Origin: Frankiales bacterium
GTDB lineage: Bacteria; Actinomycetota; Actinomycetes; S36-B12; CAIYMF01
NCBI GenBank assembly: GCA_016125335.1
Contig: WGLY01000015.1
Location: forward strand, 1-64,000
Direction of reading: 5' to 3'
Length of the DNA: 64,000 bases
Part shown: positions 15,470 through 52,330 of the stretch, piece by piece
Numbering within the stretch: position 1 is the stretch's first letter
Layout of the letters: every line of letters starts with the position of its first letter
Notes under the pieces: generated by a model
The model's input: the letters and a program-made list of their open reading frames with translations, nothing else
Database searches by the model: none
What the model was told of the DNA's origin: nothing
Position numbers and translations under genes: made by a program

Positions 15470-16309
15470 TCAGGCCTCGGAGAGCTGCTCCTGCTCCATG
15501 CCCATCGACTCCTCGTGCACCCGCAGCGTGCCGTCGCCGAAGCGCGGGTCCGCACCGCGCGCCGCCAGCGCTGCGGCGCGCGCGGCCCGCTTGTCGGCCG
15601 CGAGCTGCTCGCCGGCGGCCAGCTCCTCGTCGGTGAGCGGGTAGGAGTCGACCCGGCTCACGCCGTGGTACTTCTCGATGTAGGCCTCGAGCTCGGGGCC
15701 GGACTCCCACGAGGTGATGAGGCAGTAGCGCGGGGCGTCGCCCTGGTGCCAGACCGCGTGGTAGAGCCGCTGGGTGTCGACGATGAGCTGCGCGCCGGCC
15801 GGCAGCGGGATCCGGGTCTCGGTCGAGGGGTCGTCCTTGTCCTCGCGCAGCACCATCACCGAGTCCGGGTTGTCGGTGAGGTTGAAGAATCCGCGCACGA
15901 TCCAGCCGGTGCCCTCGGGGTTGAGCCGGTTGTTGTCGTCGCGGTGGAAGTTGTAGAGCGTCTCGCCGTAGAGGTTCGGCTGCAGCTCGATCACGCGGCA
16001 GCGCCCGATGTTGGCCCCGGGCTCCTGCGCGCGGCGCACGAGGTTCGGCGCCTTGTCCGCGTTCGCCGGCACCCAGACGCCGTCCTTGTCGGTCTTGGGC
16101 GGGGTGTGGTTCCAGAACCCGTCGCACTCGAGGTCGCCGTAGGCCGAGGCGAGGGGCGCGAAGCGGGTCTCGCCCGACGACTTCCAGTCGACGTACTCGA
16201 TGTCGAGCCACTCCTGCGGGTCCGCCGCCTGGTCGTAGCTGTCGAGCACCACGTAGCCGTTCTCACGGAAGGCCTCAAGCTTGGTGTAGCCGTTCTCGGT
16301 GTACGCCAT
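15470..16309 (-). CDS. Predicted Fe(II)/2-oxoglutarate oxygenase, paralogue 1
   Basis: 279 residues, no signal peptide or membrane segment. I do not recognise a named family. It shows the pattern of a double-stranded beta-helix oxygenase: HxD (His122, Asp124 in FHRDDNN), a distal His (184 or 188 in LYHAVWH) and Arg194 in APRYCLITS placed to bind 2-oxoglutarate. The next gene (16436-17206) is a close paralogue sharing EYVDWKSSG, RFAPLASAYG, DDNNRLNP, NPDSVMVLRED and DDPSTET. The C-terminal 40-odd residues are Ala/Glu-rich and unique to this copy. Start ATG 16309 has GAGGAA 5 nt upstream. A long palindrome containing an iron-box-like core lies 47 nt upstream. Substrate unknown; an aspartyl/prolyl hydroxylase-like or small-molecule role are both possible. 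Confidence 0.72.
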   Translation of the reverse strand: MAYTENGYTKLEAFRENGYVVLDSYDQAADPQEWLDIEYVDWKSSGETRFAPLASAYGDLECDGFWNHTPPKTDKDGVWVPANADKAPNLVRRAQEPGANIGRCRVIELQPNLYGETLYNFHRDDNNRLNPEGTGWIVRGFFNLTDNPDSVMVLREDKDDPSTETRIPLPAGAQLIVDTQRLYHAVWHQGDAPRYCLITSWESGPELEAYIEKYHGVSRVDSYPLTDEELAAGEQLAADKRAARAAALAARGADPRFGDGTLRVHEESMGMEQEQLSEA

Positions 16310-16355
16310 CGGTTCCTCACACGTCGGGGGGTCCGTCCGGGTCCATCATGCCGCA

Positions 16356-16395
16356 GACACACCGCTACTTAGGTAACCCTAAGTAGCGGTGTGTC
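16356..16395. promoter_or_regulatory. 18-bp perfect palindrome with iron-box-like core
   Basis: Two 18-nt arms (16356-16373 and 16378-16395) are exact reverse complements around a 4-nt centre (TAAC). The middle reads TTAGGTAACCCTAA (16369-16382), matching about 12 of the first 14 positions of the DtxR/IdeR consensus TTAGGTTAGCCTAACCTAA. It lies 47 nt upstream of oxygenase 1 and 40 nt downstream of oxygenase 2, so it could act as an operator, a terminator for oxygenase 2, or both. A CATGAT hexamer just downstream on the minus strand could be a -10. Confidence 0.55.
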
Positions 16396-16435
16396 CGTTC
16401 TCACGCGTCCGGGCGCCACCCGCCGCGTCCGGGGG

Positions 16436-17206
16436 TCAGGCCTCCGACATCACCCGGGTGGGGTCGTAGCCGTAGTACGCCGTGCGCGCCGCGCGGCGCT
16501 GCTGGGCGAGGATCTCGCCCTCGACGGCGGTGCCCTGGTCGAGGAAGGCGCTCTCGACGTGCGTCGTCGGCGAGTTCTCCCACAGCCACTTCTCGAGCTC
16601 CGGCCCGGACTCGACCGAGGTGATGAGGCAGTAGCGCGGCTCGTCGCCCTGGTGCCACACCGAGTGCCACATCCGCTCGCTGTCGACCACGAGCTGGGCG
16701 CCGGCCGGCAGCGAGATCCGCGTCTCGGTGGACGGGTCGTCGATGTCCTCGCGCAGCACCATCACCGAGTCGGGGTTGTGGGTCAGCTGCATGAAGCAGC
16801 GCAGCACCCAGCCCTCGCCGTCCGGGTTGAGCCGGTTGTTGTCGTCGAGGTGGCTGTTGTAGAGCGCGTCCGCGTAGGTGTTGGGCTGCAGCTCGATGAT
16901 GCGGCAGCGTCCCACGTTGGCCCCGATCGCCTTCACGCGCTCGACGAGCGTGGGGGCCACGGCGGTCTGCGAGTCGATCCAGACGCCGTCCTTGTCCGGC
17001 TTGGGCGGGTCGAAGTGCCAGAAGCCGTTGCACTCGACCTGGCCGTACGCCGAGGCCAGCGGCGCGAAGCGGGTGTCGCCGGAGGACTTCCAGTCGACGT
17101 ACTCGAGGTCCTTCCACTCGGCCGGGTCGATGGGGTTCTGGTAGGAGTCGAGGACGACGTAGCCGGTCTCCTCGAGCAGCGGCAGCTTCAGGTGGTTGCG
17201 CGACAT
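16436..17206 (-). CDS. Predicted Fe(II)/2-oxoglutarate oxygenase, paralogue 2
   Basis: 256 residues from the ATG at 17206, which has AGAGGGG 6 nt upstream; an ATG at 17314 is in frame but gives an unconserved Arg-rich extension. Same architecture as its neighbour: His119-x-Asp121 (SHLDDNN), distal His181/His185 in MWHSVWH, and Arg191 in EPRYCLITS. The two differ at the HxD residue (HLD here, HRD in the other), in the linker after the barrel, and in the C-terminus (ends YYGYDPTRVMSEA). This is a tandem duplication with divergence. A DtxR/IdeR-type box lies 118 nt upstream at 17324-17342. Enzymatic function is predicted from motif pattern only. Confidence 0.72.
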   Translation of the reverse strand: MSRNHLKLPLLEETGYVVLDSYQNPIDPAEWKDLEYVDWKSSGDTRFAPLASAYGQVECNGFWHFDPPKPDKDGVWIDSQTAVAPTLVERVKAIGANVGRCRIIELQPNTYADALYNSHLDDNNRLNPDGEGWVLRCFMQLTHNPDSVMVLREDIDDPSTETRISLPAGAQLVVDSERMWHSVWHQGDEPRYCLITSVESGPELEKWLWENSPTTHVESAFLDQGTAVEGEILAQQRRAARTAYYGYDPTRVMSEA

Positions 17207-36517: not shown

Positions 36518-37075
36518 TCAGAGGGGGCTCAGACCCATCAATGCTAGCAAGGCTCCGGTGGCCTCCTCGACGGACGCGTTGACCACCGTCGCGTCGAACT
36601 CCGACTCGGCGGCCAGCTCCACCTGGGCGGTGGCCAGCCGGGCCCGGATCACCTCGGCCGGCTCGGTGCCCCGACCCACCAGCCGGCGCACCAGCTCGTC
36701 CCACGACGGCGGTGCGAGGAACACGAACAGCGCGTCGGGCATGCTCGCCCGCACCTGACGGGCGCCCTGGAGCTCGATCTCGAGCACCACCGGGGTGCCC
36801 TGCTCGAGGTGCTCGAGCACGGGACGGCGCGGGGTGCCGTAGAAGTTGCCGGCGAACTCGGCGTACTCGAGCAGCTCGCCCTCCTCGACCATCCGGGCGA
36901 ACTCGGCGTGGTCGACGAAGAAGTACTCGACCCCGTGGGTCTCCCCCGGGCGCGGGCGCCGGGTGGTGGCCGACACGGAGAGCCAGACGTCGGGACGCGT
37001 GGCGCGCAGGTTCTGCACGACCGTGCTCTTGCCCACCCCGGAGGGACCGGACAGGACGGTCAGGCGGGCGTTCAG
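36518..37075 (-). CDS. gmk: Guanylate kinase (inferred CTG start)
   Basis: Phosphorylates GMP to GDP. About 185 residues. P-loop GPSGVGKS (10-17), [30 protein letters not shown], and [11 protein letters not shown]. No ATG, GTG or TTG exists between the mihF stop and the P-loop except a GTG inside the P-loop. The CTG at 37075 overlaps the mihF stop (CTGA) and has GAAGGAG 8 nt upstream, so it is the best start. The frame stays open far upstream but would overlap mihF entirely. Confidence 0.94.
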
Positions 37076-37386
37076 GCGGAGAACTCCTTCTCCAGCGCCG
37101 CGATCTGGTGCGTGCCGAGGCCCCGGACGCGGCGGTTCTCCGCGATCTGCAGGCGCTCCATGATCTCGGCCGCCCGCACCTTGCCGACGCCGGGCATCGA
37201 CTCGAGCAGGGCCGAGACCTTCATCTTGCCGATGATGTCGTCGGTCTGGCCCGCGGCGATGACCTCGCCGATCGAGGCCCCGGAACGCTTGAGACGGTTC
37301 TTGACCTCCGCGCGGATGCGTCGTGCCTCGGCGGCCTTCTCCAGGGCGGCCGCGCGCTGCTCGGGGGTCAGGGGCGGTAGGGCCAC
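37072..37386 (-). CDS. mihF: Integration host factor, actinobacterial type (mIHF/sIHF)
   Basis: Small nucleoid-associated DNA-binding protein, 104 residues. N-terminal helix [29 protein letters not shown], then a helix-two-turn-helix region [11 protein letters not shown] and [18 protein letters not shown]. Unrelated to enterobacterial IHF. Starts at GTG 37386 with an AGGA site 6 nt upstream. Heads the mihF-gmk-rpoZ-coaBC run and overlaps gmk by 4 nt. In streptomycetes its homologue affects sporulation and topology. Confidence 0.95.
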
Positions 37387-37500: not shown

Positions 37501-38082
37501 TCAGACCGATGCGGAGGGGACCCGCACCGCGCGGAACGGGTTCGACGTCGGCGACACGGCGTGCGCGCCGAGGTGGATCCGGTCCGTGGGCACCTTGTGG
37601 CCGTTGACGAACAGCTCGAAGGCGACGCGCGACGAGCAGTCGGCGCCGATCCGCAGGAGGTCGACTCCCCCGACGTTGGTGAAGCGGAAGGCCAGCGTGT
37701 GGTGGCGCGGCCCGATCCACCAGCGGTCGCCGCCGCGGCCGTGCTCGAGCCGGACGCCCGTGGCGTGCAGCTCGTCGCTCGCGGTCACGAACCCGCTGAA
37801 GACGACCTTGCGCGTGCCCGGGTGGGTGGCGAACAGGTGCCAGCCGGTGGCGTTGTGCCAGATCCAGTAGCCCGTGGGGAGCCCGGCGTGGAGCCCGGCG
37901 GGACGGCCCTCGAAGCGGTCCGGCACGGTGCCGGTCGAGCAGGTGGCGGTGGCGGTGGTGGATGACGGCGCGAGCGGCGCGGCCCCGGCCGCGGACGGTG
38001 CCGCCACCGCGAGGCCGGCGGCCAGGGCGGACGCGGACACGGCCGCGACCGCGCCGCGCCGGACGGTGCTGGTGGTGGACAT
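37501..38082 (-). CDS. Secreted protein of unknown function
   Basis: 193 residues. Sec-type signal peptide: charged STVRRG, hydrophobic [18 protein letters not shown], then AxA sites near residues 30-35. Mature part is rich in Trp, His and Gly, with [40 protein letters not shown] and [21 protein letters not shown]. These short aromatic-rich repeats suggest a beta-structured extracellular domain. Two Cys (CSTG near residue 48, ADCSS near 150) could form a disulfide. ATG 38082 with GAGGGAG upstream. Family not recognised; exported location is the only inference. Confidence 0.8.
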
Positions 38083-38309
38083 GGTGCTCCCTCGTGTCGT
38101 GCGGCGGGCCCGTCCCGTCGCTGCGGTCCTCACGGTGACCGGCCCCCGTTGTCCGCGCGTGGGCGTCGGGTCAGAGCCGTGTAAGGACCGCCCGGGTGCG
38201 CTCGGCGCAGCCGTCGTCGTCCCGGCTCGGGCATGCTTGTCCGCCGGGGCGCTCGCCGCGGCGCCCCCGCCGTCCGGCGCGCGACGCGGCGGGCACCGCG
38301 GAGGCGGCC

Positions 38310-38669
38310 ATGGCGCAGACGACGTCCACCATCGAGGAGTACGCCGCGCGGCTCGCGCCGGAGGCGGTGGCGCCGTTCTCCGCGATCCGGGCGGTGATCG
38401 AGCGGGTGGCGCCGCAGGCCGAGGGCCGGATCTCCTACGGCATGCCGACGTGGGCCGACCACGGCACCGCCTTCGTCCATCTCGCCGCCTGGCGGCAGCA
38501 CGTCTCGCTCTACCCCGTGCCGGCGATGGACGAGGAGCTGCACCGCGCGCTGGTCCCCCACCTGAGCGGTCGCGGCACGCTGCGCTTCCCGCTGAGCGAC
38601 CCGCTGCCCCTCGACCGCATCGAGCAGGTGGTGCGCCTGCTGCACGACCAGCGGACCGGGTCCGCGTGA
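38310..38669 (+). CDS. DUF1801-family protein
   Basis: 119 residues, ATG 38310 with GGAGG 5 nt upstream. TIEEYAARLAPEAVAPFSAIRAVIERVAP, ISYGMPTWADHGTAFVHLAAWRQHVSLYPVP and GRGTLRFPLSDPLPLDRIEQVVR match the DUF1801 / YdhG-like group, which includes a proposed iron chaperone in Bacillus. No biochemical role can be assigned. Divergent from the secreted-protein gene; 227 nt between them hold no other clear feature. Confidence 0.82.
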   Translation: MAQTTSTIEEYAARLAPEAVAPFSAIRAVIERVAPQAEGRISYGMPTWADHGTAFVHLAAWRQHVSLYPVPAMDEELHRALVPHLSGRGTLRFPLSDPLPLDRIEQVVRLLHDQRTGSA

Positions 38670-38736
38670 CCCTCGGCACTGCCGTCCGCCCCGTCGTCGG
38701 GGCTCCGGGTGAAGCAGCCCTTCGTGGCTGGGATCA

Positions 38737-38754
38737 CAGCCCTGACCAGGGCTG
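38737..38754 (+). terminator. Small hairpin between DUF1801 gene and glycyl-radical gene
   Basis: CAGCCCT (38737-38743) and AGGGCTG (38748-38754) form a perfect 7-bp stem with GACC loop, 67 nt after the DUF1801 stop and 38 nt before the -10 of the next gene. It could be a weak terminator or an operator for the downstream gene. Confidence 0.35.
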
Positions 38755-38792
38755 ACGCCGCCGCCCACGAGGACTCGCACCGGCCGCGCGCG

Positions 38793-38798
38793 TAGCGT
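38793..38798 (+). promoter_or_regulatory. -10 element for the glycyl-radical gene
   Basis: TAGCGT lies 7 nt upstream of the GTG start at 38806 and no Shine-Dalgarno is present, so transcription would start at or next to the start codon (leaderless). No good -35. No obvious FNR/CRP-type site is seen. Confidence 0.45.
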
Positions 38799-38805
38799 CG
38801 AACGC

Positions 38806-40359
38806 GTGGACACCACCGAGATGCGCACCCGGGCCCGCGCCCTCGTCGACAGCCCCGCGCTGACCTACCGGCAGCGCGTCGCGGCGCTCGCCGCCCTGGC
38901 CGAGGAGTCGCTCGACCCGCCGAAGGTCTCCGCCGCGTGCGAGGACGCCCTCGCCTCCGGGCTCGTCGACGACCTCGCCGAGGGCCATGCGCCGTACCGG
39001 CCGCGCTACCTGCTGCCCGACTACGGCCTGGCCCTGCGCCAGGGGTCGGAGTTCCTCGGGCTGCCCGCACCCACCGACCTCTACGAGGCCGTGGCGTTCC
39101 TGCTCTCGGCGTACTCGCAGGTGCCGTCGATCACCGGCTACCCGGTCTACCTCGGCGCCGTCGACGCGCTGCTCGAGCCGTTCGCCGCGGACGTCGACGA
39201 CGACACGCTGCGACGCGTGCTCAAGCTCCTGTGGGTCACGATCGACCGGTCGCTGCCCGACGCCTTCACCCACGCGAACCTCGGGCCCGACGACACCCGG
39301 GTCGGGCGCACGGTGCTCGCCCTGGAGCGCGACCTGCTCCAGACGGTGCCCAACCTCTCCCTGCTCGTCGACCCGGACCGCACGCCCGACGACCTCGTGC
39401 TCGACGCGGTCCGCACCGTGTTCGCCTGCGGCAAGCCGCACTTCGTCAACCACCGGATGATGACCGGCGACCTCGGGCCGGAGTACGGCGTCGTCTCCTG
39501 CTACAACTCGCTGCGGCTCGGCGGCGGGTCGCACACGCTCGTGCGGCTCAACCTCAAGGAGTCGGCGGACCGCAGCGGCGTGGACGCCGAGCGGTGGCTC
39601 TCCGACGTCCTGCCCGAGCACGTGGCCCTCACCGCCGAGCTCATGGCCGCGCGGATCGAGTCGCTGGTCGAGCAGGCGCGGTTCTTCGAGCACTCGTGGC
39701 TGGTCGACGAGGGCCTCGTGCACCTCGACCGGATGTCGGCCATGTTCGGCGTCTACGGCCTCGCCGAGGCGGTCGACGTCCTCGTGGAGCGCGCCGGCGG
39801 CGACGGGCACTACGGCACCGACCCCGAGGCCACGGCGCTCGGGTGGCGCACGGTCGAGCGCCTGGCCGAGCTGGTCGGCGAGGTGTCGCTGCCGTACTGC
39901 GAGGGCAACGGGGGCCACCCGTTCCTGCACTCGCAGTCCGGGATCGACTCCGACGTCGGGGTCACCGCGGGCACGCGCATCCCGATCGGGCAGGAGCCCG
40001 GCCTGCTCCAGCACCTGCGCGCCGTGACGCCGAACCACCGGTGGTTCGCCTCCGGCGTCAGCGACATCGTCCACTTCGACGACACCGCCGTGCGCAACCC
40101 GCAGGCCGTCGTCGACGTGGTCCGGGGGGCCCTGGCGTCCGGCATGCGCGACGTCACGTTCAACCTCGACAGCAACGACTTCATCCGCATCACCGGCTAC
40201 CTCGTCCGCAAGTCCGACCTGGCCCGGCTCGCGGCGACCGGGGTCGCACGCCACGGCAGCGATGTCCTGGCTGCAGGGTCGGTCGCCAACTCCCACGTGA
40301 CCGATCGCGTCGTGAAGAGGGTGATCAGCAGTGAGTCGGCCTCTCGGGCTGCTGGCTGA
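38806..40359 (+). CDS. yjjI: YjjI-type glycyl-radical enzyme
   Basis: 517 residues, the size of Escherichia coli YjjI. C-terminal glycyl-radical loop RITGYLV with the radical Gly at 464, and a candidate active-site Cys232 in VVSCYNSLRLGGG. Further blocks: NHRMMTGDLGPEYG, YCEGNGGHPFLHSQSG, DVTFNLDSNDFIRITGY. Family function is unknown; related enzymes are pyruvate formate-lyase and anaerobic ribonucleotide reductase, but the short length and divergent loop separate it from both. It overlaps the activase gene by 29 nt. Glycyl radicals are destroyed by oxygen, so it is likely used in low-oxygen conditions. Confidence 0.85.
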   Translation: MDTTEMRTRARALVDSPALTYRQRVAALAALAEESLDPPKVSAACEDALASGLVDDLAEGHAPYRPRYLLPDYGLALRQGSEFLGLPAPTDLYEAVAFLLSAYSQVPSITGYPVYLGAVDALLEPFAADVDDDTLRRVLKLLWVTIDRSLPDAFTHANLGPDDTRVGRTVLALERDLLQTVPNLSLLVDPDRTPDDLVLDAVRTVFACGKPHFVNHRMMTGDLGPEYGVVSCYNSLRLGGGSHTLVRLNLKESADRSGVDAERWLSDVLPEHVALTAELMAARIESLVEQARFFEHSWLVDEGLVHLDRMSAMFGVYGLAEAVDVLVERAGGDGHYGTDPEATALGWRTVERLAELVGEVSLPYCEGNGGHPFLHSQSGIDSDVGVTAGTRIPIGQEPGLLQHLRAVTPNHRWFASGVSDIVHFDDTAVRNPQAVVDVVRGALASGMRDVTFNLDSNDFIRITGYLVRKSDLARLAATGVARHGSDVLAAGSVANSHVTDRVVKRVISSESASRAAG

Positions 40360-41059
40360 CGTCGTCCCGTTCTCCTGGGTCGACGGCCCCGGCAACCGCT
40401 GCGCAGTGTTCCTCCAGGGCTGCAACCTGGACTGCCTCGCCTGCCACAACCCGCACACCATGCCGCGGCAGACCGCGCGGGCGCGCGAGGTGACGGTCGA
40501 GGAGCTCCTCGACGAGGTGCGGCCGCTCGCGCCGTACCTGTCCGGCGTCACGGTGTCCGGCGGCGAGGCCACCCTCCAGGCGGAGTTCGTGGCCGCGTGG
40601 TTCGCCGCGCTGCGCGACGACCCGGCCACCGCGCGGCTCACCCGCTTCATCGACAGCAACGGGTGCGCGGACTCGGCCACGTGGGACCTCCTGCTCCCGC
40701 TGACCGACGGGGTGATGCTCGACCTCAAGGCCCTCGACGTCGAGACGCACGAGGCGCTCACGCACCGGTCCAACGCGCCGGTCCTCATGAGCCTGCGCCG
40801 CCTGGTGCACGAGCGGAAGCTGGCGGAGGTCCGGCTGCTCGTGGTCCCCGGCTACAACGACGACGAGGACACGCTGCGCGACACCGGCGAGTACCTGGCC
40901 GACAACGCGCCGGGCGTCCCGGTGCGGGTGATCGGGTTCCGCGCGCACGGGGTCCGGGCCGCGGCCCGGCAGATCCACGAGCCGACCGCGGAGGAGCGCG
41001 CCAGCTACGGCGAGTGGGTGGGCGCCGCGGTGGGCCGCCAGCTGGTCACCCTGGTGTGA
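40331..41059 (+). CDS. yjjW: Radical-SAM glycyl-radical enzyme activase (YjjW-type)
   Basis: 242 residues. Radical-SAM cluster motif CNLDCLAC (Cys31, Cys35, Cys38), GGE motif in VTVSGGEATLQ, and the PFSWVDGPGNRCAVFLQGCN entry typical of PFL-type activases. It lacks the inserted eight-Cys ferredoxin region present in some activases. GTG 40331 is inside the yjjI 3' end, so both are coupled. Predicted to abstract hydrogen from Gly464 of the upstream enzyme. Its 3' end overlaps the convergent membrane-protein gene by 14 nt. Confidence 0.88.
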   Translation: MSRPLGLLADVVPFSWVDGPGNRCAVFLQGCNLDCLACHNPHTMPRQTARAREVTVEELLDEVRPLAPYLSGVTVSGGEATLQAEFVAAWFAALRDDPATARLTRFIDSNGCADSATWDLLLPLTDGVMLDLKALDVETHEALTHRSNAPVLMSLRRLVHERKLAEVRLLVVPGYNDDEDTLRDTGEYLADNAPGVPVRVIGFRAHGVRAAARQIHEPTAEERASYGEWVGAAVGRQLVTLV

Positions 41060-41378
41060 GCGCGTCCGCGCGGTCCGGCCGGGCCAGCGCGTAGCAGGCC
41101 GCGCCGGCGGCGGCGGCCACCAGCAGCACCGACGGCCACGCCCCGATGACGAGCCCCAGCGGGTGCGAGACGACGAAGAGCACGGCCACCACGGCCAGCG
41201 CGGCGATCGTGCGTGCCGCCCCGCTGCTGCGCGCCATCCACCAGGCGCACAGCGCCGCCCCGGCGACGAGCACCACGCCGCCCAGGGCGCGGTTGCCGCT
41301 CAGCGAGGCCACGGCGAACCCGGCCAGGAGGGTGAGCGCGGCCGTGAGCGCGATCCGGGCGCGCGATCCGGACGGCAC
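41046..41378 (-). CDS. Small four-helix membrane protein
   Basis: 110 residues with hydrophobic segments at about 9-26, 31-48, 55-70 and 75-97, short loops and a charged C-terminal tail. GTG 41378 starts 1 nt after the pyrF stop, so it is the last gene of the pyrimidine transcript. Its end overlaps yjjW in the opposite strand. Family not recognised. The coupling to pyrF argues that it is a real gene; a role in pyrimidine metabolism is not implied. Confidence 0.6.
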   Translation of the reverse strand: MPSGSRARIALTAALTLLAGFAVASLSGNRALGGVVLVAGAALCAWWMARSSGAARTIAALAVVAVLFVVSHPLGLVIGAWPSVLLVAAAAGAACYALARPDRADALTPG

Positions 41379-41379
41379 G

Positions 41380-42084
41380 TCAGCGCGCCCGCAGCGACTC
41401 GGCGAGGGCGGCGGCCGCTGCGCCGGCGTCGGCGGCGCCGGTGATGGGGCGCCCCACGACGAGCAGGTCCGCGCCGTCGGCGAGCGCCTGCTCGGGCGTG
41501 GCCACGCGGGCCTGGTCGCCGGCGTCCGCGCCGCGCGGGCGCACGCCGGGGGTGATGAGCACGACGTCGGGGCCCACCTCGGCCCGCACGGCGGCGACCT
41601 CCTGCGGGGAGCAGACCAGGGCCGAGGCGCCGGCGCCGACGGCCAGCACCGCCAGGCGGCGCACCGCGTCGATCGGCGGCCCGGCGATGCCCACCGAGGC
41701 CAGCGCCGCGGCGTCCAGCGAGGTGAGCACCGTCACCGCAGCGACGCGGGTGCCGGGCAGCGCGTCGACGGCGGCCCGCACCATGGCGGCACCGCCGGAG
41801 GCGTGCACGGTGAGGTAGTCCGGGGCAAGGCCGGCCACCGAGCGCGACGCGCCCGCGACGGTGTTGGGGATGTCGTGCAGCTTGAGGTCGAGGAACACCT
41901 CGCGGCCCCCCGAGGCGGCGCGCACCGCGTGCACGGCGTCCGCGCCGTCGCGCAGGTAGGTCTCGAGCCCCACCTTCAGGGTGGACACGTGCGGGCCGAC
42001 CGCGGCCGCCCACGCCGTGGCGGTGGCGAGGTCGGGCGCGTCGAGCGCCACCGCCACGGGGGCCAGGGCCAGGGCGGCGGTCAT
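41380..42084 (-). CDS. pyrF: Orotidine 5'-phosphate decarboxylase
   Basis: Final step to UMP. 234 residues. [11 protein letters not shown], catalytic [11 protein letters not shown], and [17 protein letters not shown] near the C-terminus. The LITPG-type block marks group 1 decarboxylases. ATG 42084 overlaps the pyrD stop (ATGA). Confidence 0.97.
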
Positions 42085-43154
42085 CCCTCCGCCCCCGCGG
42101 CCACGGTGTCGTCGGCGTCCTCGTCCGGCGCGCCGTGGGCGGACACCGGGCCCCCGGAGGCGGGCTCGGGGTCGGGCGCCCGGTGGGCGAAGCCCACGGC
42201 CTCCTCGAGCGAGCCGAAGCCGCGCTCGGCGAGGGCGACGGCGAGCTCGCGGGCGACGCGCAGCGGCGCGCTCGGGTCGTGGAAGGTCACCGTGCCGACG
42301 CTGACCGCGCTGGCGCCGGCCAGGACGAACTCGAGCGCGTCCAGGCCCGTGCGGATGCCGCCCATCCCGAGGATCGGGACGTCGGGCAGGGCGGCGTGCA
42401 CCTGGTAGACGCAGCGCACCGCGACCGGGCGGATCGCCGGCCCGGACAGGCCGCCGGTGACGCCGGCGAGCGCGGGCCGCAGGGTGTCGGTGTCGATCAC
42501 CATGCCCAGCAGGGTGTTGATGAGCGAGAGGCCGTCGGCCCCGGCGTCCACCACGGCCTGCGCGATCTCGACGATGTCGGTGACGTCGGGCGAGAGCTTC
42601 GCCAGCACGGGCACGCCCGGGTTGGTGTTGCGGCGCACCGCGGACACGACGTCGGCCGCGGAGCCGGCGCGGCAGGCGAACACCTGGCCGCGGTCCTCGA
42701 CGTTGGGGCAGGAGATGTTGACCTCGATGGCCGCGACTTCGCTGACGTGGCGGAGCTTGGAGGCCAGCCGGGTGTACTCGTCGACCGAGCCGCCCGCGAT
42801 CGACACGACGGTGCGCGCGCCCCGCGCCCGCAGCCACTCCAGGTCGTTGTCGAGGAAGGCCTCGATCCCCGGCCCCTGCAGGCCGATCGAGTTGAGCATG
42901 CCGCTGGGCGTCTCGGCCATGCGCGGCGTGGGCCGACCGGACCGCGGGTTGAGCATGATGCTCTTGGTGACGACGGCGCCGATCTCGGTGATGTCGAAGA
43001 ACTGGTCGAGCTCGCGCCCGGCGGCGGCGCACCCGGACGCCGTGAGCACGGGCGAAGGCAGCTCGAGCGCGCCGAGCCGGGTGGTCATGTCGACGTCGGG
43101 CACGGCGGCGGCCTGGTCGGGACGCGGTCCGTGCGTGATCACCGCGCGGGTCAT
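42081..43154 (-). CDS. pyrD: Dihydroorotate dehydrogenase, class 1B catalytic subunit
   Basis: Oxidises dihydroorotate to orotate, FMN-dependent. 357 residues. [36 protein letters not shown], and NISCPNVED with the active-site Cys of class 1. It pairs with the adjacent electron-transfer subunit PyrK, so NAD is the likely acceptor. The first 22 residues and a roughly 35-residue acidic tail are extra to the family core; ATG 43154 shares a base with the pyrK stop (TGATG). Confidence 0.96.
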
Positions 43155-44025
43155 CAGTGCCCTCCGCTCACGGGGCCGCCGAGGGTGCCCTCGGGGATGG
43201 TGCCGACGTCGTCCCAGCGCACCCGGTCGCCCCGGAACACCGGACCGTCGACGCACGAGCGCAGCATGCGGGTGACGCCGTCGTCGCCGACCACCGGCAG
43301 CACGCAGGTCATGCACACGCCGATCCCGCACGCCATCGACTCCTCGACCGCGCACTGGGAGTACGCGCCATGGTCGGCGGCCACCTTCGCCACCGCCTGG
43401 AGCATCGGCATCGGCCCGCAGGCGTAGACGACGTCGGCGTCGGTGCGCCGGAGCACGGCGGGCAGCGCGTCGGTGACGCGGCCCCGCTCGCCCACCGAGC
43501 CGTCATCAGTGGTGAGGGTGAGCGAGGCGGCGATGCGCTTGGCGTCCAGGACGCCGAACAGCTTGGACTCGGTGGAGGCGCCGAGCACGACGTCGACCCG
43601 GCAGCCCCGGGCGCGCAGCGCGTCGGCGAGGGAGAACATCGGCGCGGAGCCGTAGCCGCCGGCCACCAGCACGCACGACACGGGTTCCTTGGGCAGGGCG
43701 AAGGGACGGCCGAGCGGGCCCACGATGTCCACGGTGTCGTGGCGGTGCAGGCGCGCGAGCCACTCGGTGCCCTTGCCCTGGGCGGCGAAGACGATCTCGA
43801 GGGTGCCGCCGTAGACGCCCCGGCTCTGCACGGAGTAGATCGAGAACGCGCGCCGCAGCAGCATCGAGGTGTGCGGGCCGCCGACGGACAGCGCCACGAA
43901 GTGACCGGGCCTGGCCAGCTCCGGGATGCCGGCCGCCGTGAGGGTCAGCACGTGGTAGTCGCCGGCCCGGCGCTGCCCGATCACCTCGCCGGTGACCTGC
44001 ACCGCGCCGGCCCTGGTCTGCACCG

Positions 44026-44029
<4 letters not shown>
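43154..44029 (-). CDS. pyrK: Dihydroorotate dehydrogenase electron-transfer subunit
   Basis: Ferredoxin-reductase-type partner of PyrD. 291 residues. FAD-binding [12 protein letters not shown]-binding [19 protein letters not shown], and a C-terminal [2Fe-2S] site CGIGVCMTC...RSC, four Cys in the PyrK pattern. ATG 44029 overlaps the carB stop (ATGA). Older genomes mislabel it as a generic oxidoreductase. Confidence 0.95.
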
Positions 44030-51841: not shown

Positions 51842-52330
51842 ATGGCCAGCGACTACGCGCGAGCGCTCGGGGCGCGGCTGCGCGCGATCCGCCAGCAGCA
51901 GGGGCTCTCGTTGCACGGCGTCGAGGAGCGCTCGCAGGGCCGCTGGAAGGCGGTCGTGGTGGGCTCCTACGAGCGCGGCGACCGCGCGGTGACCGTGCAG
52001 AAGCTCGCCGAGCTCGCGGACTTCTACACCGTCCCGGTCTCCGAGCTGCTGCCCGACTCCTCGCCCGCGGCCGCCGCCGAGCCGCCCCAGCGCCTCGTCA
52101 TCGACCTCGAGCGCCTCGGCCAGGTGCCCGCCGAGAAGGCCGGCCCGCTGGCCCGCTACGCGGCCGCGATCCAGGCCCAGCGCGGCGACTACAACGGCCG
52201 GGTGCTCTCGATCCGCCAGGACGACCTGCGCACCCTCGCCGTCATCTACGACGAGCCGCCCAGCCAGCTGGCCGACCAGCTCATCGCCTGGGGCGTGCTC
52301 AACCCCGAGGCGCGCCGGGCCCTGGACTGA
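51842..52330 (+). CDS. bldD: BldD-type developmental regulator
   Basis: 162 residues. N-terminal helix-turn-helix (YARALGARLRAIRQQQGLSLHGVEERS through GSYERGDRAVTVQKLAELADFY). C-terminal c-di-GMP-binding signature RGD-x8-RxxD: Arg114-Gly-Asp116 and Arg125-Gln-Asp-Asp128, the same spacing and numbering as streptomycete BldD. ATG 51842 with AAGGA 6 nt upstream. Plus strand, convergent with pyk. Ligand-driven dimerisation is predicted because the motif is complete. Confidence 0.94.
   Translation: MASDYARALGARLRAIRQQQGLSLHGVEERSQGRWKAVVVGSYERGDRAVTVQKLAELADFYTVPVSELLPDSSPAAAAEPPQRLVIDLERLGQVPAEKAGPLARYAAAIQAQRGDYNGRVLSIRQDDLRTLAVIYDEPPSQLADQLIAWGVLNPEARRALD

Follow-up and report, generated by a model that had tools for sequence, protein, structure and literature searches.

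The DNA described here is a stretch of 64,000 nucleotides (the window) from contig WGLY01000015.1 of a Frankiales bacterium. It carries a gene pair, yjjI and a yjjW-like gene, whose predicted products are a glycyl-radical enzyme of the YjjI family and its activase, a radical S-adenosylmethionine (SAM) protein. The genes and their catalytic motifs are as follows.

38806..40359, + strand: yjjI, 517 aa, GTG start; a YjjI-family glycyl-radical enzyme by profile matches and 43% identity to Escherichia coli YjjI (locus L056).
40331..41059, + strand: yjjW-like radical-SAM activase, 242 aa, a short form without the ferredoxin-like insert.
39499..39501, + strand: codon of Cys232, the presumed thiyl-radical residue in S231-C-Y-N234, from its invariance and a weak hhalign match to GCIET of PflD.
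40195..40197, + strand: codon of Gly464, the predicted radical glycine in R-I-T-G-Y, from motif position and invariance.
40421..40444, + strand: C31-x3-C35-x2-C38, the putative [4Fe-4S]/SAM motif of the activase, from the sequence motif.

The two reading frames overlap by 29 nt. YjjI matches TIGR04040 with 641.3 bits (cut-off 498.3) over the full length of the profile (positions 3-497 of 497), and in Pfam it hits a single family with E of 0.1 or lower, PF11230, YjjI-like (618.8 bits), both scores being far above chance level; PF01228, the PFL-like Pfam family and PF13597 gave no match at this threshold. The YjjI sequence found no PDB match with E of 1 or lower, and the sole PDB hit of the YjjI alignment was ribosomal protein L29, with E above 1. 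The activase matches PF04055 (65.3 bits) and Fer4_12 (47.9 bits) and is closest in the PDB to PflA (3c8f, E. coli PflA, E 2.6e-30); TIGR04041, the YjjW model, reaches 223.9 bits, under its curated cut-off of 250.2. A YjjW-like frame adjoins yjjI in all 59 deduplicated loci searched by tblastn. These sequence comparisons confirm that the pair is a real and intact glycyl-radical system; it is also an under-studied one. A first-pass annotation made from the letters alone had placed it at 38793-41059, where both frames do lie, with the start set 13 nt too early. Its identification of a 517-residue YjjI-family enzyme, of an RxxGY loop with Gly464 and of Cys232 as candidate catalytic cysteine was borne out, and its statement that the family has no known reaction agrees with the literature searched.

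Residue conservation was assessed on 59 rows (48 loci, the window, E. coli and loci of further genomes, with duplicates dropped); four rows, truncated by contig ends, were set aside and the 55 full-length rows were scored. Cys232 and Gly464, the latter in the radical loop R461-I-T-G464-Y465, are kept in all 55. YjjI of the window has cysteines at 45, 208, 232 and 365; of these, Cys232 alone is invariant. All 55 rows have S-C-Y-N as their Cys loop, compared with ACCVSP in pyruvate formate-lyase (PFL), GCIET in PflD and GCRSF in NrdD, where we take the cysteine shown to be the catalytic one. Every row has Asn234 where the glutamate of the PflD C-x-E motif stands (C441-I-E443), so that the glutamate two residues past the thiyl cysteine that marks the C-x-E dehydratases is missing throughout. 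The marks of PFL, a PF01228 domain and a Cys-Cys pair, are likewise missing, S-C-Y-N having no adjacent cysteine. The same is true of those of NrdD, the anaerobic (class III) ribonucleotide reductase, namely PF13597 and C-terminal Cys pairs; the last cysteine of YjjI is at 365.

A model of YjjI was built with AF2 from 45 rows (pLDDT 83.3, pTM 0.85). Most of the model aligns with glycyl-radical enzymes of solved structure, with Z scores of 30.6 for NrdD, 25.6 for PflD and 24.7 for PFL. NrdD structures fill the first 23 rows of a Foldseek search (8p2s_B, E 3.9e-16) and the first 19 rows of a VIA-align search (8p2s_B, Z 30.6, 470 residues, 3.0 A), where they range from Z 30.6 down to 25.6, the value that other glycyl-radical enzymes reach. 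The nearest fold to the predicted model is that of NrdD. Alignment of YjjI by hhalign to single E. coli sequences gave probabilities of 30% for PflD, 5% for NrdD and 0.5% for PFL (the last with its first 18 residues cut off), signals too weak to place the family. The first-pass annotation would have given up its family assignment if YjjI had grouped with PFL or NrdD. By sequence the family stands separate from both, while the predicted fold lies nearest NrdD. We read YjjI as a probable separate glycyl-radical lineage, neither PFL nor C-x-E dehydratase nor NrdD.

The genomic position of the pair was described by two further features.

37501..41378, no strand: accessory islet between mihF and pyrF, made up of yjjI-yjjW, a 193-aa ORF, a DUF1801 ORF and a 110-aa ORF.
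38738..38753, no strand: inverted repeat AGCCCTGACCAGGGCT upstream of yjjI, probably not functional.

The islet lies between mihF (37072-37386) and pyrF (41380-42084), which are 3,993 bp apart. The yjjIW pair is on the + strand; pyrF, pyrD, mihF and a PyrK-like gene (under its cut-offs) are on the - strand, and further neighbours, among them carB, gmk and metK, were named by eye. The DUF1801 ORF was named by Pfam, in which the 193-aa and 110-aa ORFs have no match. In four genomes of the genus the junction is closed, mihF and pyrF being 111 (G008), 96 (G009), 112 (G010) and 136 bp (G005) apart by tblastn limits; the first three have no yjjI and G005 has it elsewhere. The pair occupies the junction in G000, G002, G004 and G006, and in a relative beyond the 11 genus genomes (L006). 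In G007 mihF is beside yjjIW with pyrF not seen, in G003, as in G005, the pair is elsewhere, and in G001 other DNA, about 1.2 kb long, occupies the junction. Because the junction is closed in four genomes and the pair is patchy and differently placed, yjjIW is an accessory islet and not part of the housekeeping operons. The earlier argument for a low-oxygen role, which rested on the position of the pair among aerobic housekeeping operons, therefore fails.

Across the genus, yjjI is found in 7 of 11 genomes, with identities of 79-82% for YjjI and 75-78% for YjjW. Cytochrome bd is encoded in 9/11, including all seven with yjjI. Neither PF01228 nor PF13597 matched any of the 11 genomes, although both models matched control genomes; the PF01228 model misses even YjjI, so that such a search could overlook a glycyl-radical enzyme of divergent sequence. 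In a sample of the phylum (completeness at least 90%), TIGR04040 exceeds its cut-off in 9 of 396 genomes. Three of 12 sample genomes with a TIGR04040 match scored just 17-21 bits and were not counted as YjjI. A plasmid collection yielded 15 yjjI records, several of them chromosome-sized (nine from E. coli, two from Proteus and one each from Aeromonas, Vibrio, Chloroflexota and Haliovirga). A phage collection yielded four: two Salmonella records of 501 kb and two unannotated, phage-named records of 4.1 and 3.1 kb, the latter two of which we assume to be host DNA. Gene context was rejected as a guide to function, as most actinomycete pairs share no operon partner and a position next to pho or pyr genes is lineage-specific. 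A gene named by eye as psuG lies near yjjI in three loci (L017, L018, L080).

The clearest new result is the occurrence of DosR-type boxes upstream of yjjI in relatives. A motif, GGGNCNTTNGNCCC, had been fixed after the sequences were viewed, and the test was therefore rerun with the published DosR consensus GGGACTTNNGNCCCT, taken from a passage of PMC6448022. At 10 or more of 12 positions, 12 of the 55 regions upstream of yjjI match GGGACTTNNGNCCCT (mean of 0.66 and maximum of 4 across 100 shuffles), and at 11 or more five do (shuffle mean 0.04). Among other genes of the same loci 10/408 reach at least 10 (Fisher p 6e-7, for rows that are phylogenetically non-independent). At 9/12 the counts are 26/55 for yjjI, against a shuffle mean of 7.39 and 47/408 other genes; this level was set aside because many of the passing sites are a different element shared by freshwater loci. 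In loci whose yjjI passes 9/12, 7/176 other genes reach 10. Counted from the start implied by alignment to the window YjjI, the box is at -49 in four Nocardioides loci (L009-L012), in Planomonospora (L014) and in L076, and weaker boxes are at -50 in L006, L008 and L077. Genome-wide counts, compared with a reversed-pattern control, were 37, 32 and 46 against 12, 11 and 8 in three Nocardioides genomes. In clusters from two of these, boxes precede genes for a response regulator of the LuxR type, a histidine kinase with two GAF domains, universal stress (Usp) proteins and a CBS protein and, as named by eye, cytochrome bd and pyruvate phosphate dikinase-like genes. The regulator and kinase are called DosR-like and DosS-like for their domain make-up. 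With the DosS-like kinase of N. ferulae as query, matches of 45-68% were obtained in G410, G411, G413 and G276, a split match (53% and 40%) in G289, and kinase-domain matches of 42-44% in G188 and G098. No paper combining 'glycyl radical' and 'DosR' was found in the literature searched.

Other sites upstream of yjjI were noted. The inverted repeat AGCCCTGACCAGGGCT was rejected as a conserved operator; it was not seen by eye upstream in relatives, and its RNA fold has a z of -0.9. In ten freshwater-type actinobacterial loci (L023, L025, L028, L029, L032, L033, L035, L036, L038, L039) an AGCACTC half-site lies about 60-80 bp upstream of yjjI, just past a response-regulator gene, with variants in L026 and L031, and is followed by GAGTGCT in L023, L028 and L032. 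This half-site resembles a CIRCE half-site. In G318, a distant member of the phylum (L080, 9247-10062, by eye), and in Haliovirga (L083, 8209-8880, as annotated), a regulator of cyclic-nucleotide-binding or Crp/Fnr-like appearance is encoded directly upstream of yjjI.

Evidence from other organisms bears on the same question. E. coli yjjI appears in an FNR regulon table, in the category preceding 'directly repressed' (PMC3688515), which we read as direct activation. According to expression data from a study of Yersinia intermedia, growth without oxygen raised yjjI 4.3-fold and yjjW 2.1-fold (PMC3792023). A 2011 paper, in the passage that concerns YjjI, predicted a role in nitrogen metabolism and an NrdD-like structure, and noted an orthologue labelled as a pflB homologue (PMC3228777). 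The parts of the literature retrieved for yjjI, yjjW and DUF3029 consist of expression tables and one prediction, with no assay and no reported reaction. In E. coli, yjjIW adjoins deoCABD, and in G318 deoC is beside the pair, with deoB and deoD homologues a few kb off.

These observations suggest that yjjIW is an intact and self-contained enzyme-activase system of the glycyl-radical type, gained as an accessory islet and used at low oxygen, a reading to which we give a probability of about 0.8. Several results weigh against it. The Gly loop is poorly modelled, residues 454-477 being under pLDDT 50, and yjjI is missing from 4/11 genus genomes. Upstream of the window yjjI there is no DosR box, the best site being 8/12 at -147. 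The window genome shows no excess of boxes (7 against 7 in the reversed control), and there is no clear genome-wide excess in Planomonospora (28 against 30), G289 (11 against 10) or G188 (5 against 2), though their yjjI has a box. The DosS-like protein of Nocardioides gives just 31-35% kinase-domain matches in the window genome and nothing at E 1e-20 in the 11 genus genomes. Among the loci examined, deo genes are near yjjIW only in E. coli and G318/G287, and none were seen in the Vibrio, Aeromonas and Proteus loci (9 kb either side) or in other loci. Given the box counts and the kinase matches, a DosR-type hypoxia switch on yjjI is a well supported prediction for Nocardioides and is likely in some other relatives; for the window organism it is unsupported by sequence. 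The low-oxygen function proposed in the first-pass annotation gains from the boxes of relatives, from the E. coli FNR and Yersinia data and from the lack of PF01228 and PF13597 matches in the genus, though an oxygen-responsive site upstream of yjjI was not found in the window. The idea is thus better supported than was then apparent, but not by the window genome itself.

The same annotation described a coupled YjjW-type activase, and both the CxxxCxxC motif and the overlap are there; the protein nevertheless stays under the TIGR04041 cut-off and has no ferredoxin-like insert. In E. coli YjjW and many others a Cys-rich insert follows CxxxCxxC. It is missing from the window activase, which in our reading explains the score below the cut-off. 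The window protein has 242 aa with 5 Cys, as against 276-309 aa with 11-17 Cys in insert-bearing rows; of 61 rows sorted on length and number of cysteines, 42 fall in the short class and 19 in the class with the insert. A quick YjjI tree, which has long branches and excludes L085 and the truncated rows, implies four changes of activase form, three of them forced by supported branches, and leaves their direction undecided. As the activases of E. coli, Vibrio, Proteus, Chloroflexota, Haliovirga and G318 all bear the insert, the short form likely arose by its loss. Even without the insert, the short activase matches E. coli PflA, and activation through an external reductant is therefore plausible.

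A working mechanism can be proposed. Short YjjW would bind one [4Fe-4S] cluster and SAM and, having no ferredoxin-like insert, would receive electrons from a stand-alone ferredoxin or flavodoxin of the cell. Reduced YjjW would then make a 5'-deoxyadenosyl radical, which would abstract hydrogen from Gly464 of YjjI. Within the barrel the resulting glycyl radical would oxidise Cys232 to a thiyl radical, and this would abstract hydrogen from a small central metabolite. That the substrate is a pentose phosphate, a deoxyribose phosphate or some other metabolite derived from nucleosides is a weak guess, and rather improbable. Somewhat less doubtful, yet still tentative, is the broader proposal that YjjI may be a third, minimal glycyl-radical lineage with an NrdD-like fold and its own C-Y-N site, acting on a nucleoside- or pentose-derived substrate, under a DosR-type hypoxia switch in several actinomycetes, with an activase ferredoxin domain seemingly lost more than once. 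Several actinomycetes with yjjI are usually regarded as aerobes.

Other readings of the enzyme have to be weighed against these data. YjjI may catalyse a dehydration or another elimination in the manner of C-x-E enzymes, with a diol or a sugar phosphate as substrate. The weak match to PflD, whose family has been solved with anhydrosugar phosphates (structure titles), and the deo neighbours are consistent with this; however, replacement of the C-x-E glutamate by Asn234 in 55/55 rows removes the usual base, and we consider such a chemistry conceivable but doubtful. A class III ribonucleotide reductase-like enzyme, reducing a nucleotide or nucleoside under anoxia, would account for the nearest predicted fold (first 23 Foldseek and first 19 VIA rows), for the deo neighbours of E. 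coli and G318 and for the structure predicted in 2011 (passage cited above, PMC3228777). A common fold proves no function, though, and E. coli NrdD has Cys175 together with two CxxC pairs before the Gly loop, where YjjI, with its one invariant cysteine, has none. There is also no PF13597 match, and as 4/11 genus genomes lack yjjI it cannot be essential for DNA synthesis. Such a reductase is therefore unlikely.

That YjjI is a PFL-like enzyme or a 2-ketoacid lyase with formate or acetyl-CoA as product is very improbable. Such an activity would suit the resemblance of the activase to PflA, the weak alignments of its Cys loop by hhalign with those of PflD and PFL, and the pflB label once given to an orthologue (same passage of PMC3228777), but these alignments amount to 30% and 0.5% probability, neither PF01228 nor the PFL-like Pfam family is matched with E of 0.1 or lower, and the ACCVSP of PFL, with its adjacent Cys pair, faces S-C-Y-N in 55/55 rows. 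A different kind of objection is that the islet is a passenger, its genes intact and yet of little or no consequence for the oxygen response of the window organism. No oxygen-linked site was found upstream of the window yjjI, and the pair is patchy in the genus (7/11) and rare in the phylum sample (9/396 over cut-off). On the other hand, conservation within the genus is good for both proteins (YjjI 79-82%, YjjW 75-78%) and genus members keep the pair at differing sites, which makes mere carriage a quite unlikely account. An islet-borne system used at low oxygen remains the preferred reading.

The DosR-type boxes of relatives make a low-oxygen role testable: Nocardioides and Planomonospora are cultured, non-pathogenic hosts in which to ask when YjjI is made and what it acts on. 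If the prediction is true, a DosR-type regulon would include a glycyl-radical enzyme, and the dormancy response, which is known chiefly from mycobacteria, would thereby gain a radical reaction of the anaerobic kind. E. coli K-12 also has YjjI, and a reported reaction was not found in the literature searched.

Some other features of the window were recorded. In the pyrimidine cluster beside the islet (42081-44029) there is a family-1 dihydroorotate dehydrogenase gene (NF005574 and TIGR01037, over cut-off), adjoined by that of a PyrK-like electron-transfer subunit under its cut-offs. A family-1 dihydroorotate dehydrogenase with a PyrK-like subunit needs no quinone pool. Near the same cluster, at 51842-52330, is a BldD-like regulator (PF21179). 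At 15470-17206 two similar-looking proteins of 279 and 256 aa are encoded in tandem; the 256-aa protein matches the Asp/Arg beta-hydroxylase family marginally, at 23.0 bits against 22.6, and the 279-aa protein has no Pfam or NCBIfam match.

Among known systems, the window pair resembles E. coli YjjI/YjjW (TIGR04040/TIGR04041) in family (43% identity), in the Cys and Gly motifs and in the overlap of the two genes. It differs in that the E. coli pair is beside deoCABD whereas the window pair is in an islet of the pyr/mihF region, and in that E. coli YjjW carries the Cys-rich ferredoxin-like insert whereas the window activase is short. NrdD is the nearest solved fold to the YjjI model and also has its radical glycine near the C-terminus, but YjjI lacks C-terminal Cys pairs, a second conserved cysteine and a PF13597 match. 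With PflD/YbiW and other PFL-type enzymes YjjI appears to share a barrel with Cys loop and Gly loop, and a weak profile match aligns the Cys loops; YjjI nonetheless has C-Y-N in place of C-I-E (PflD) or C-C (PFL), is much shorter (517 aa against 810 in YbiW) and has no PF01228 match. The DosR (DevR) hypoxia regulon of mycobacteria is resembled by the consensus boxes that precede yjjI of relatives and by two Nocardioides genomes in which boxes precede Usp genes as well as those of a regulator and a kinase built like DosR and DosS. It is in these relatives that the likeness lies, the window genome differing in its lack of a box, of a box excess and of a close DosS-like kinase.

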